From assembly GCA_026390585.1 (NCBI GenBank), contig JAPLFP010000188.1, positions 1-47,538 of the forward strand: a stretch of DNA of 47,538 nt. Reading direction: 5' to 3'. The notes beneath the pieces were generated by a model. That model was not told the origin of the DNA. It saw nothing but the letters and a program-made list of their open reading frames with translations, and did not search any database. The DNA is from Ignavibacteriales bacterium (lineage in GTDB: Bacteria; Bacteroidota; Ignavibacteria; UBA10030). A program made the translations under genes and the position numbers. Shown in pieces: positions 7,659 through 37,112 of this stretch; position 1 is the first letter of the stretch, and every line of letters begins with the position of its first letter.

Positions 7659-8636
7659 TTATTTCGCTTTCGGCTTCTTCGCGTCTGCCCGATAGCTTTC
7701 AATGGCACCCAGCAGCATCCGTTGCAGCGTGCCGAGCAATTCGGATCCCTGCGAAACATCCTGCGGAGAGAGCGAGACAATCGTGCGCGCGTTCTTCAGG
7801 CCCTGGCTGGCTTCAGCGAGGCGGGCCGCTTGCGGGGTGAGCATCAAAAGCTCGGGACTGCTCCTCAGCATGTCGAGCTCTTCTTTGTCATACTCGAGCT
7901 TCTTGCGGCTGCGCTTCAATTCTTCGTTTATACGGATATCGGCAAGCAACGAATCGCGCTCGAGTTGATTCTTCTTCAGCTCGTGCTTCCTCAGTTCGAG
8001 TTCATTTTCGAGGAGGGCAATTTCTTCGTCGGCTTTCAGCTTCGCCTTTGATGCGGCGATACGCGCCTTCTGATTCAAGGTTTCGGTTTGTTCAAGAATG
8101 CGGGCATGCTCCTGCTGCCTCAGCGCTTCGGAGATTTGGGGATTGACGGGTTCGAACGAAAGGATGGTCAACGAAATCACTTCCAAACCAAGCGAGGTTT
8201 TGCTCGCCGGAAGCTTTTGATTCAGATACTCATGGATCTTCTCCGAAGAGAGGCTCTCGATCCCATGTTGCTCGGTATACGACTTGACATGCCCCTGAAG
8301 AACCGACTCCAGATCTTTGGCAGCTCTTGCAACGGCATCCGCGCTCCAGCCGCCAACGCGGATGAGTGCCGAGAGGTTGTCCAGGCTCGCAGCAACCGTT
8401 ACACCCAGCTTCACCTTCACCTCGAGGTTGCCCTTCGAGGAAGCGTCGACCGACATCTGGAGCGAGTGCGTTGTCCGCCGGATGGGAAGACTGAAATGGC
8501 GAGGATAGAGCAAGCCTTTGCGCAGAGCCAGCCCCCCACGGCGTTCGTACAAGACCAGGTAGTCCGGTTTCCGGAAGCGATACTCAAACGCGAAAACCGC
8601 GATGACCAGAATGGCGACAACGACGAAGAACTCCAT
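7659..8636 (-). CDS. SPFH / band-7 domain membrane protein
   Basis: 325 residues: one N-terminal membrane segment (about 2-17), an SPFH-type domain (about 30-175, including the RRTTHSLQMSVDASSKGNLEVKV-type strand pattern and a Leu/Val-rich helix before VISLTILSFEPVNPQI), then a long charged coiled coil (about 180-265) and a tail ending KKPKAK. SPFH proteins oligomerise on membranes and scaffold protease or transport complexes. The ATG at 8636 has an AGGAG site six bases upstream. The giant aminotransferase/PEPC-like gene starts 59 bases after its stop, so the two are probably cotranscribed; whether the SPFH protein anchors the giant protein is unknown. Confidence 0.85.
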   Translation of the reverse strand: MEFFVVVAILVIAVFAFEYRFRKPDYLVLYERRGGLALRKGLLYPRHFSLPIRRTTHSLQMSVDASSKGNLEVKVKLGVTVAASLDNLSALIRVGGWSADAVARAAKDLESVLQGHVKSYTEQHGIESLSSEKIHEYLNQKLPASKTSLGLEVISLTILSFEPVNPQISEALRQQEHARILEQTETLNQKARIAASKAKLKADEEIALLENELELRKHELKKNQLERDSLLADIRINEELKRSRKKLEYDKEELDMLRSSPELLMLTPQAARLAEASQGLKNARTIVSLSPQDVSQGSELLGTLQRMLLGAIESYRADAKKPKAK

Positions 8637-33314: not shown

Positions 33315-35246
33315 CTATGCCAACCGCGCAAACCGCCTGTTGGAGTCGGGGAAATCCACTCCGAGCGCGAACCACGTGAACAGACCAAATCCAAACCCAG
33401 CGGCCAGCGAGTCCCAAGAAAATTGTGGCGCATAGGGCACCCCTGTCGCGGGAAGTGCGGTCAGCACTGCCCCGGCGACAACGCTGAGGATCGCAATCCA
33501 TTGATACAAGCGAAGTCCGCCGAAGACCGGCGTTTGCGGTTCACCACGATATGCTTCCTCCACAAACCTCCCCAACCCGGTGAGTATCAAATACATGCCT
33601 GCGATGAAAGCAAACGAGGCATGCACGAACCACAATCTCGTCACCACGAACGCGATGACGACGTTCCAGAGAATTGAGTAGACTGGTGTCGGATGAATCG
33701 GTAGGCCGCTAAGGTTGGCGAGTCTGCATACACGGGAGCGTGGATGTGTGTAGCGAATTCCGATCTCCGGACTGGCTTCGTGGCCATGACAGCAGCCCTG
33801 TATGAGACATCGCATTCTGCCAAACGATTGGATCCACGGTCCCGCGACGCAGAACGAAGCAAGAAGCAGCCAGACATTGGTGCCGAGCAGACTGGCAAAG
33901 AATGCGCCGACGATCACGCCGACAACACCGCCGTAGTACCCATACGGACGGAGAAGCTTCGGCGAACCTTCGATAAACTGAGCCCACAAGGCAGAGATGA
34001 TAAGGCTTGAGAACGCTACGATGAGAACCGATGCAACGTGCGCCGGTCCGGTCAGCCATCCCACGATACTCACTCCGATAAACGTCCCGATGCCGGCAAA
34101 GATACCGTGATTGATGATCCGCACCGGACCGAATCTCCATTCCTTCCACGAGTTTGAGAACTTCTCAGAAGAGGAGCGGATGAACTCCCACACACTCTTC
34201 GCACGCGTAGCAAGGAAATATACTACGACTGCTCCCACCACATCAGCGATCGCATGCATGCCGGTGGTAACGCAGCTTGCCGAAACCAATATTGCCCACA
34301 TCCACCATAAGTGTCTCAGCGAAGGAACCCGCTCTGCGTAGACCCGGGCAGCTAGAAGTGTCCACAGAACGTGAAAGGACGGAAATGCAGCGGCTGCCGT
34401 ATCCTTTGACCGTTCAAACATCAGAAGGTTCCCGAAAAACCCCTCCAGCACAAACGGACGCGGCGTTGCCACGATCGGGATCGCAAGAAAGATAAGCAGT
34501 GTGATGACTGTTCCAGTCAATCCCGCGATTGAAAACTCACGAAGAGCGCGCCGTGAACCGGCAACAAGTGGCACTGCGACTACGAATACATACGCACTCG
34601 CGTAAACTGCCTCTGTCCACTCCCAGACAGGCAGGCTCTTCTCGAACGGCAGGAACACACTCACGCCATCCTTCGGAACACCGAGCACCTTCACTGCCTC
34701 ATAGAGGATCAACCAGGGGAAAAGGACGAGGAAGCACACAGACAGCCGGTCCCATATTCCTGGAGCGCCACTTTCATTTGATGGGATACGGATTAATGGC
34801 TTTGGAAAGGCTGACCCGAATCGTCGAGCCAGATTATGCTTCTCGAAGCCCTGCACCAGAGCAACGCATCCGAGGATCACCACGGGCGACACGAGCCATA
34901 GTCCACTGGCCGATTCTGCCGCTATCGAGGCACCAATGCAGAGTATTGAAAAGCCTACGTAGATCGGATGCGCAACATATCGGTAGATCCCCTTCGCGAC
35001 GAAGTTCTTCGGAGGAAATGGACTCATCGGGAGGCCGTCTCCGTAAACTCTCAGAGCAATGACACCGCCCGCCATCATGATCGCGCCGATTAGCGCAGCC
35101 ATCAATCCGACCTCAGGAGAACCGATGATGGGAAGCGGAACATTTTGATCGCCGAAAGCAGCCCATGCGATGAGAAATGCGGGCAAGACGACAACAAACA
35201 GAAACCCATACAGCACTTTGCCGAAACGCTCCGAGATGATCCTCAT
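33315..35246 (-). CDS. Three-part membrane fusion: ICMT-like, PAP2-like and Lgt-like
   Basis: 643 residues, with about 15 hydrophobic segments. Residues about 1-160 are isoprenylcysteine-methyltransferase-like (FVAKGIYRYVAHPIYVG). Residues about 170-350 are a PAP2-like lipid phosphatase with ATPRP (about 260), PSFH in place of PSGH (289-292) and GMHAIAD (H331, D335). Residues about 400-620 are like prolipoprotein diacylglyceryl transferase: GRMRCLIQGCCHG, GIRYTHPRS, then HPTPVYSILWNV and GRFVEEAYRGE. The classical Lgt N-terminal part is missing, so the substrate is probably not a prolipoprotein. The start overlaps the upstream stop as ATGA (35243-35246). Confidence 0.85.
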   Translation of the reverse strand: MRIISERFGKVLYGFLFVVVLPAFLIAWAAFGDQNVPLPIIGSPEVGLMAALIGAIMMAGGVIALRVYGDGLPMSPFPPKNFVAKGIYRYVAHPIYVGFSILCIGASIAAESASGLWLVSPVVILGCVALVQGFEKHNLARRFGSAFPKPLIRIPSNESGAPGIWDRLSVCFLVLFPWLILYEAVKVLGVPKDGVSVFLPFEKSLPVWEWTEAVYASAYVFVVAVPLVAGSRRALREFSIAGLTGTVITLLIFLAIPIVATPRPFVLEGFFGNLLMFERSKDTAAAAFPSFHVLWTLLAARVYAERVPSLRHLWWMWAILVSASCVTTGMHAIADVVGAVVVYFLATRAKSVWEFIRSSSEKFSNSWKEWRFGPVRIINHGIFAGIGTFIGVSIVGWLTGPAHVASVLIVAFSSLIISALWAQFIEGSPKLLRPYGYYGGVVGVIVGAFFASLLGTNVWLLLASFCVAGPWIQSFGRMRCLIQGCCHGHEASPEIGIRYTHPRSRVCRLANLSGLPIHPTPVYSILWNVVIAFVVTRLWFVHASFAFIAGMYLILTGLGRFVEEAYRGEPQTPVFGGLRLYQWIAILSVVAGAVLTALPATGVPYAPQFSWDSLAAGFGFGLFTWFALGVDFPDSNRRFARLA

Positions 35247-36076
35247 AGAGGCGCTCCGCTATTGTCGGGTGGATCCGAGTGAGGCCATCGAACGACCTCA
35301 TGGATTGTCCACCCCGAACTGAGAATGGAATCTGCTTTCCTTAGGAAGCCCCGGCTCCTCCACTTGCACTCTTCAGTGTTCAGCATTCTTGCCGGGAGGA
35401 GCGTGTTGATCCCGGGAATGACTGAGAGAGCTGTGGACGCGAGAGTTCCTTCGCGCAGAACCTTCGTTTCTTCGAAAAAGAGGTTGAGGTGATTCTCCCC
35501 CAGGACGATTTCACGATCTGTCACCTGCGCACCCTCACACAGAGCCCCGTTGTGGTAGACGATCGTCTCAGGACTTGGCCCTTTGAAATCCATCCAGATG
35601 ATCGAGTCCGTTTCAGAAAGAAATCTCCCCCACCTGAGCTCATCCAGAGGGAGTTTCCATGGCTGGGCAGGAAGATTCAGAAAGTCGACGTATCCATACC
35701 CTCTAAACGTGCCAATGTCCCCCACGGAAATCTCCGCCACGGCGTGCGGTTGCAGGCATGACCAGTTCAACGGGCTATCGGACGATCCGAAGAACGTGCG
35801 ACCGATCGGTTGTTGCCGAGATTTCCATTCCCCTTTGAGCTTCAGAGACGGACAGTCCCATCGCACTGAGCCCCCAGTGATGTCCGGATGCCTTCCTCCA
35901 TGAAGAGTTGACTTGGTAAGAATCTCGTCTGTCGAGCGTCTGATGAGGATGCCGGAGTATTCGAGGGATAGTGCTTTCCAGCGAAGCGACGCGGAGTAGC
36001 CGACAAATGCCTCTCCTTCATCGGTGACGCAGTCGAGATACCATTTGGCAAGTGAGAAATGGGAGGATGGAGCCAT
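35243..36076 (-). CDS. Lipocalin-like (CrtC/AttH-type) protein, tentative
   Basis: 277 residues, no signal peptide. Trp- and Gly-rich beta-strand pattern (SLAKWYLDCVTDEGEAFVGY, GSVRWDCPSLKLKGEW, NWSCLQPHAVAEISVG, DSIIWMDFKG) like the two-lipocalin fold of carotenoid hydratase CrtC and AttH-like proteins. The family call is from pattern only. No good ribosome site. Its stop overlaps the start of the fusion gene by four bases (ATGA), so both proteins are made together, perhaps acting on the same hydrophobic molecule. Confidence 0.6.
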   Translation of the reverse strand: MAPSSHFSLAKWYLDCVTDEGEAFVGYSASLRWKALSLEYSGILIRRSTDEILTKSTLHGGRHPDITGGSVRWDCPSLKLKGEWKSRQQPIGRTFFGSSDSPLNWSCLQPHAVAEISVGDIGTFRGYGYVDFLNLPAQPWKLPLDELRWGRFLSETDSIIWMDFKGPSPETIVYHNGALCEGAQVTDREIVLGENHLNLFFEETKVLREGTLASTALSVIPGINTLLPARMLNTEECKWRSRGFLRKADSILSSGWTIHEVVRWPHSDPPDNSGAPL

Positions 36077-36242: not shown

Positions 36243-37112
36243 CTACCTCGAGATGAGTGTGAACAATGACTCCCGACGCGGGAAAGCGAGGGTCGACTCC
36301 GCAAAGAGTAGTTCCTCTTTGTTTAGCCGCCGAATGGCCTGGGCCAAGCCATTGGACACATGGTTCTGGGCTTCTCCGACGGGCACCTCTGCGAACCCCG
36401 CCAAGCGGCAGAAGTCCAGGCTCTCGCCATCCGAAGCGAATCGGATGTGTGCGATCGATAGGTGTTCACTGCCAATCTCAATTGGCAGAAGGGCGAGAGA
36501 GAAACGGGGAATATTCTGAAACAGGGAGTCCCACTCAGCGAATCCATTTTGAACACCGAGTCGCCCGCAGGCGATGATGAGGTCGCTGCGATACGCTGCC
36601 AGCTCGGGGCTATCAAAAACTCCGGGGACATTGATGCGCAACGGCTTCATCTTCGATTGGACAGCCCGGAAGATGTCGATGCTCACTCGCCGAGCGACGG
36701 CAGAACCGCTTTCGTTGACGATGCTCACGTAGCAGTTGCCGACAACCGCCTGGACCTGGTACTTCGAAAGACAAGTGTTGGGTGTCAGAGAATCCACTGG
36801 CACACACTTGAAACGCTGGACGGAGAAAATGCCATACGCTTCGTTGGCTCCAGCCATCTGATAGATCTCGACAACGATTGTTTCGTTCGATGACCGGACC
36901 TCCTGCCTGCCGAGTTTTCTGAATCCGTACTCCAGGTATAGCTCAGCCCCGCCGTCGATATATCCGAACAGAGCCTGCCCCGTGTAATAGTCCGTCGAGA
37001 GAATCGTTCCGCCGGAGAGATCTCCCTGATGGAGTACCGGTACTTCTTGAGCAACGGAGGCATTTCCTAATGCGCAGAGAAGCACACAGAGTATCGAGGA
37101 GCGCACACGCAT
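36243..37112 (-). CDS. Exported DUF6599-type protein
   Basis: 289 residues. Signal peptide (about 1-21, ending ASVAQ) followed by the family mark YIDGGAELYLEYGFRKLG and EIYQMAGANEAYGIFSVQR. Function unknown. It starts five bases after the stop of the DUF362 gene (37118), so the two form an operon; the pair recurs in this bacterial group to my knowledge, but I cannot confirm how widely. Confidence 0.75.
   Translation of the reverse strand: MRVRSSILCVLLCALGNASVAQEVPVLHQGDLSGGTILSTDYYTGQALFGYIDGGAELYLEYGFRKLGRQEVRSSNETIVVEIYQMAGANEAYGIFSVQRFKCVPVDSLTPNTCLSKYQVQAVVGNCYVSIVNESGSAVARRVSIDIFRAVQSKMKPLRINVPGVFDSPELAAYRSDLIIACGRLGVQNGFAEWDSLFQNIPRFSLALLPIEIGSEHLSIAHIRFASDGESLDFCRLAGFAEVPVGEAQNHVSNGLAQAIRRLNKEELLFAESTLAFPRRESLFTLISR

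Follow-up and report, generated by a model that had tools for sequence, protein, structure and literature searches.

Lgt is an essential lipoprotein enzyme whose N-terminus is periplasmic in E. coli, and PAP2 phosphatases carry the motifs KX6RP, PSGH and SRX5HX3D. Domains with both of these folds are joined, together with a domain that has the fold of the Ma-ICMT/PEMT-type methyltransferases, in one membrane protein encoded in the window, by which we mean the whole 47,538-nucleotide stretch of Ignavibacteriales DNA that was analyzed. Among the papers covered by a literature search, none on this fusion was found. An ORF scan of the window gave a single uninterrupted frame of 643 aa with an ATG start on the minus strand at 33315-35246; a plus-strand reading of the same interval was rejected, as it contains 15 stops. 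The features of the locus are as follows.

33315-35246, minus strand: fused membrane protein of 643 aa with 18 predicted TM helices (PEMT/ICMT-like, PAP2-like and Lgt-like domains and a conserved C-terminal TM helix and tail), from the ORF, Pfam, the AF2 model and homologues.
34797-35246, minus strand: PEMT/ICMT-like methyltransferase domain, residues 1-150, with a site predicted to face the cytosol (Pfam PEMT, fold, topology).
34953-34991, minus strand: GxYxxxxHPIYxG motif, residues 86-98 (alignment).
34815-34844, minus strand: E135...RFG segment, residues 135-144 (alignment columns).
34203-34796, minus strand: PAP2-like domain, residues 151-348, predicted to face the periplasm and the least conserved part (Pfam PAP2_3, fold, conservation).
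34371-34382, minus strand: PSFH (motif 2), residues 289-292, with H292 in 10/11 and S290 in 8/11 homologues.
34242-34277, minus strand: SCxTTGMHxxxD (motif 3 without its Arg), residues 324-335, including H331 and D335 (H/D in 10/11).
33444-34175, minus strand: Lgt-like domain including its N-terminus, residues 358-601, predicted to be inverted with a cytosolic active site (5azb fold, charge signature).
33783-33821, minus strand: GRxRCLxQGCCHG signature, residues 476-488, invariant save for Q to N in 1/11 and the x positions.
33531-33572, minus strand: GRFxEExxRGExQT, residues 559-572, in which R560, E564 and R567 are the equivalents of Lgt R239, E243 and R246.
33318-33443, minus strand: extra 8th TM helix of the Lgt part and cytosolic tail GVDFPxSxRRFARL, residues 602-643 (AF2 helix 611-629; 8 invariant tail columns).
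35243-36076, minus strand: partner gene for a 277-aa CrtC/AttH-like lipocalin-fold protein with no evident signal peptide (ORF, AF2, PDB matches).
36243-37112, minus strand: DUF6599 protein (60.7 bits), encoded in the same direction as the module, upstream of it and outside the conserved two-gene unit.

An earlier note on this DNA had proposed that three lipid-handling folds are joined here, and the single ORF, Pfam and the AF2 model with its PDB fold search agree in bearing this out. The matches to PEMT, PAP2_3 and LGT all lie above the curated Pfam cut-offs. The AF2 model, built from an 11-sequence alignment, has a pLDDT of 83.6 and a pTM of 0.86, and comparison of its parts with known folds recovered each domain separately (Lgt 5azb, IPC synthase 9vj4 and Ma-ICMT 4a2n); folds outside the match lists remain possible, and absence from a list was not used as evidence. 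Solved structures were not matched by sequence, also in the case of the PAP2-like part. The motifs quoted in the note (GIYRYVAHPIYVG, ATPRP, PSFH, H331/D335, GRMRCLIQGCCHG and GRFVEEAYRGE) are present in the sequence. Among 11 aligned homologues, 17-22% of the columns are invariant in the PEMT, linker and Lgt parts, compared with 1% in the PAP2 part.

The fusion occurs in 13 other genomes at 35-68% identity: in one of the same genus (G004, 68%), six of the order (G035, G040, G049, G842, G839 and G854, the last a copy split over two contig ends that is counted among the 14 genomes), two of the class (G155 and G359), two of the phylum (G199 and G100) and two of a second phylum, namely Minicystis rosea (50% identity, on a closed chromosome) and G695, whose copy turned up when the Minicystis phylum was searched. 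The distribution of the fusion is sparse and uneven, with 8 carriers among 98 genomes of the order, 8 among 395 in the phylum sample and 2 among 379 in the sample of the Minicystis phylum, and no plasmid copy was found. The survey showed the pair of fusion and lipocalin-fold partner to be kept in all 14 genomes across the two phyla. Separate genes joined by a local assembly error, the outcome that the note had named as fatal to its proposal, were not what the homologues showed; since full-length homologues are found in independent genomes, a closed chromosome included, the fusion and its partner are a conserved, patchily spread two-gene module and not an assembly artefact. The Minicystis copy (50%) is about as close to that of the window as the copies within the order are (51-53%), which suggests horizontal transfer. 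A 936-aa frame in G695 was considered as a fusion that takes in the partner as well and was discarded: its N-terminal 300 residues are an out-of-frame extension in high-GC DNA, and the partner is a separate overlapping gene. In G529, a genome of the Minicystis phylum, a truncated partner of about 96 residues followed by a stop (L093, about 7780-8090) has no adjoining fusion gene and is probably a decayed copy of the module.

The coupling to a lipocalin-like protein, as first noticed from the letters of the DNA, was confirmed. The partner gene lies directly upstream of the fusion gene, in the same order, in 14/14 genomes, and in the window its stop overlaps the start of the fusion by 4 bp (ATGA at 35243-35246). 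The other neighbors vary from genome to genome, and none besides the partner recurs. The partner is 255-280 aa long across genomes, is divergent in G839, and, for all 11 members searched, matched no Pfam family (the best unrelated hit had E 0.12). Its AF2 model (pLDDT 89.5) places it by structure in the CrtC/AttH-like lipocalin superfamily, as it matched the double-lipocalin enzymes Fsa2, CghA, Phm7, NE1406, AttH, 25-phosphosteroid lyase and kievitone hydratase with Z scores of 17.2-22.5, the next unrelated fold scoring 6.2. Inspection of the N-termini by eye revealed no signal peptide; a conserved motif F/L-x-L-x-K-W/L-Y starts within about 20 residues of the first, and the N-terminus leads straight into the first strand. 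In G100 (L052:4962-8630), the gene upstream of the partner overlaps it (TGATG) and shows a weak resemblance to phytoene/squalene synthases (E 0.052 in NCBIfam; HpnC in the PDB, E 0.94).

The fold of the partner invites the question of whether the substrate of the module is an isoprenoid or polyene lipid (resembling a carotenoid, hopanoid or sterol), which the partner would hydrate, cyclize or subject to elimination and which the membrane enzyme would modify or anchor. 25-phosphosteroid lyase, kievitone hydratase and Diels-Alderases all have this fold, and the translationally coupled gene of G100 points the same way. Yet a search of that gene for Pfam domains found none, and no such neighbor is seen at the other loci. 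An attempt to link the module to isoprenoids by phylogenetic profile failed, as SQS_PSY is near universal in the order (95 of 98 genomes, with or without the module) and does not track it. We consider an isoprenoid substrate improbable.

Topology was predicted from charge, with the helices taken from AF2, and from the order of the domains. Inside and outside segments of the fusion alternate with charge, and every inside segment of more than two residues carries K or R. In the Lgt part, the mean K+R counts are 5.5, 1.6, 5.6, 2.6 and 2.9 for the five inside segments, while the four outside loops average 0.1, 0, 0 and 0.3. The pattern is not so sharp in the PAP2 part, as both of the longer segments on its outer side carry some K/R (1.2 and 2.3 on average). 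In 28 of 29 standalone proteins, the four loops corresponding to the cytosolic ones of E. coli Lgt contain 10-16 K/R; the fusions have 1-2 there, and the charge difference (these loops minus the periplasmic segments) is +1 to +12 in 28/29 standalone proteins and -5 to -10 in 11/11 fusions. The charge signature that predicts a periplasm-facing active site is reversed in the fusion: the positive loop charges that anchor canonical Lgt are missing in all 11, and charge is found on the active-site side instead. The domain order agrees with this, as a cytosol-facing SAM-using domain is followed by six PAP2 helices ending in the cytosol and then by the Lgt fold. Because of the reversed loop charge and the domain order, the Lgt-like domain is probably inverted in the membrane, with its active site in the cytosol. 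The methyltransferase and Lgt-like sites are thus predicted to be cytosolic, together with the partner, and only the PAP2 site periplasmic, so that the three sites would not be aligned on one leaflet.

The Lgt-like domain matches Pfam LGT (PF01790) over residues 436-596 (71.7 bits against a cut-off of 24.9, E 7.8e-20), and E. coli Lgt 5azb by fold with a Z score of 16.2 over 227 residues. The note, which was right about the fusion, its motifs and the upstream coupling, went astray in stating that the usual N-terminus is missing from this half. Residues 358-601 of the model match chain residues 6-285 by structure, and FGPVRIINHG-IFAGIGTFIG of the fusion aligns with the N-terminal segment of E. 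coli Lgt; only the Pfam hit starts late. Site residues were compared, as the note had proposed, between the 11 aligned fusions and 29 standalone Lgt-family proteins (those of E. coli, the window genome itself and relatives, and GCCYG types). R143, G154, R239, E243 and R246 are kept in 11/11 fusions and H196 in 10/11. Y26 to H, G145 to R and W/Y/F153 to H are found in all 11 fusions and in none of the standalone proteins, and E202 is replaced by S or A in 11/11, S at this position being shared with two identical standalone proteins. E. coli Lgt variants Y26A/F/Q, G145A/I/V and E151A/Q are inactive (PMC4728403). The changes H103 to Y and N146 to C were dropped as signs of lost Lgt function, as normal Lgts of the phylum carry the same letters.

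One possibility is that the fusion is a second lipoprotein-lipidation enzyme, a reading close to that of the note. In the periplasm, it would transfer diacylglycerol to selected prolipoproteins, with recycling of the released phosphate by the PAP2 part and modification of the product by the methyltransferase. PF01790 matches in 11/11 aligned homologues and the retention of R143, R239, E243 and R246 are consistent with this. So is G155, which is rated 100% complete: LspA was found there and a search for LGT-family matches returned only the fusion, which would be hard to understand if the fusion were unable to act as an Lgt. The charge pattern, however, is opposite to that of standalone Lgts, Y26, G145 and E202 are replaced, and scores fall far under the NCBIfam Lgt equivalog cut-offs (32.3 against 118.9 bits for TIGR00544 and 63.6 against 334 for NF000778). 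Moreover, a separate full-length LGT-family match is present in the window genome and 11 other carriers (12/14, with G854 included by inference from its genus, without a PF01790 search), the second match in G839 being partial (model 1-181). The canonical Lgt of the window genome (L039:259-1290, contig C175) is of the GRIGCHLAGDGDYG type and has F at the position of H103. Lipoprotein-type diacylglyceryl transfer by the Lgt-like domain is doubtful, since the domain is predicted to be inverted and Y26, G145 and E202 are gone, and a second lipidation enzyme seems to us very unlikely.

The PAP2-like part matches Pfam PAP2_3 at residues 211-346 (45.7 bits, E 8.5e-12). Over about residues 149-351 its best folds are those of Aur1/IPC synthase and SMS-related headgroup transferases (IPC synthase 9vj4, Z 11.8; Aur1, Z 11.5; SMSr, Z 10.9), whose His/His/Asp positions it keeps, and the phosphatase LpxE ties with them (Z 11.7). 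The phosphatase motifs are altered: the Lys of motif 1 is absent in 11/11 homologues, and the Arg of motif 3 is C in 10/11 and Q in the other. Motif 2 is changed from PSGH to PSFH, as the note had read it, at residues 289-292 and varies as PS(F/Y)H or PAFH among homologues, with S290 replaced by A in 2/11; R263 is lost in 4/11. H292, H331 and D335 are kept in 10/11, the exception being G100, in which all catalytic residues and PAP2 motifs are lost and without which the share of invariant columns rises to 12%. Phosphatase activity is not supported, because motif residues are replaced, conservation is low and the motifs are gone in G100. This leaves the dephosphorylation step proposed earlier without support, and likewise the order of dephosphorylation, diacylglyceryl transfer and methylation, as the PAP2 site is predicted to lie in the periplasm and the other two in the cytosol. 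It is possible that the PAP2 part has a putative Aur1/SMS-type phosphotransfer activity or has lost its function.

Loss of function would suit another arrangement, in which catalysis is confined to the methyltransferase and/or the Lgt-like domain. The PAP2 part would then be a remnant or serve as a scaffold, and the protein would methylate lipids from the cytosolic side, its inverted Lgt-fold domain binding lipid. The 1% of invariant PAP2 columns, the motif loss in G100, the loss of R263 and the change at S290 are all in keeping with this, but H292, H331 and D335 persist in 10/11 homologues, and in the Lgt part hardly any variation is seen in the GCCHG and RGE segments, which suggests chemistry there. 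We think such an arrangement unlikely.

The N-terminal domain matches Pfam PEMT at residues 79-145 (33.9 bits against a cut-off of 25, E 4.5e-8). Like the Ma-ICMT/PEMT-type methyltransferases it combines this fold (Ma-ICMT 4a2n, Z 7.5) and HMM with HPxYxG and a following Glu, and differs from them in lacking the Arg of the RHPxY motif and in being fused. E135 is invariant in 11/11 homologues, and the motif reads HPIY in 9/11 and NPIY in 2/11. PbSRD5A (7c83, Z 8.1), a reductase of the same fold, scores like Ma-ICMT. Methyl transfer is not certain, since H93 is N in two homologues and the fold is shared with an NADPH-type reductase.

Our preferred reading, which we put forward tentatively and at rather less than even confidence, is that the two-gene module synthesizes or alters a membrane lipid on the cytosolic side of the cytoplasmic membrane; the fusion, its conservation, the partner, the folds, the residue changes and the charge pattern are observed, and orientation, catalysis, substrate and the order of steps are inferred. 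The lone LGT-family match of G155 is a weak point of this reading. The inverted Lgt-fold domain, which keeps the phospholipid-handling R143, R239, E243, R246 and G154 in changed surroundings, would transfer a glyceryl-lipid group to an acceptor in the cytosol, or react a phosphatidyl-type donor with it, this acceptor taking the place of the prolipoprotein. Methylation of the product by the joined methyltransferase would follow, and the lipocalin-fold partner may bind the methylated product or convert it further. The PAP2-like part, on the opposite face, may be a headgroup phosphotransferase or a remnant. Of the dedicated lipid-modification route first proposed for this locus, what survives is a lipid-handling unit with a lipocalin-fold partner in two phyla, without the proposed sequence of reactions.

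Proteins with a similar charge reversal are found outside the fusions. A standalone Lgt-like protein of 442 aa in G301 (L074; L096:1227-2555) has reversed charge, an extra TM helix and a soluble C-terminal region and adjoins the fused clade in the tree. In Rhodococcus opacus, WP_247253873.1, a 418-aa 'prolipoprotein diacylglyceryl transferase family protein', has a GCCHG motif and reversed loop charge; its gene (L101:4917-6173, on plasmid NZ_CP095404.2) adjoins contractile-tail genes (tail sheath, tail protein, DUF4255), and among the papers covered by a literature search, none on Lgt with contractile systems was found. The fusions, L074-like proteins and Lgt-like proteins associated with contractile systems could conceivably form a turned-over, cytosolic branch of the Lgt fold, of which the two-gene fused version would make an undescribed methylated membrane lipid, although we rate this as less probable than not. 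If the topology holds, the fold of an essential lipoprotein enzyme is used in reverse orientation with another acceptor. Such a result would widen the annotation of the Lgt family, since lipidation of proteins may not be the role of many database entries that bear the name Lgt. It would further indicate a bacterial lipid yet to be described, and the two genes would offer a defined unit with which to look for it.

Among the known systems, E. coli Lgt (PDB 5AZB) shares with the fusion its fold, its N-terminus, the position of the GR...G signature and the equivalents of R143, G154, H196, R239, E243 and R246. The fusion differs in its predicted inversion, in the replacement of Y26, G145, E202 and W153 by H, R, S and H, in its extra 8th TM helix and tail, and in the two other domains to which it is joined. 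The GCCYG-type Lgts of the phylum (e.g., L072 and L089) resemble the fusion in C at 146, CC at 151-152 and RGD/RGE past the last arginine, but keep Y26, G145, E202 and the normal charge pattern. L074 and the Rhodococcus protein share the GCCYG/GCCHG motif and the reversed charge in three inter-helix loops and, unlike the fusion, are not joined to PEMT or PAP2 and have a soluble C-terminal region. The partner has the fold of CrtC/AttH-like enzymes (Fsa2, CghA, 25-phosphosteroid lyase, kievitone hydratase and NE1406; Z 17-22.5 over 230-247 residues), from which it is set apart by an identity of about 10%, its shorter length (about 265 aa), the lack of a recognized Pfam family and its constant presence next to the fusion at every fusion locus found.
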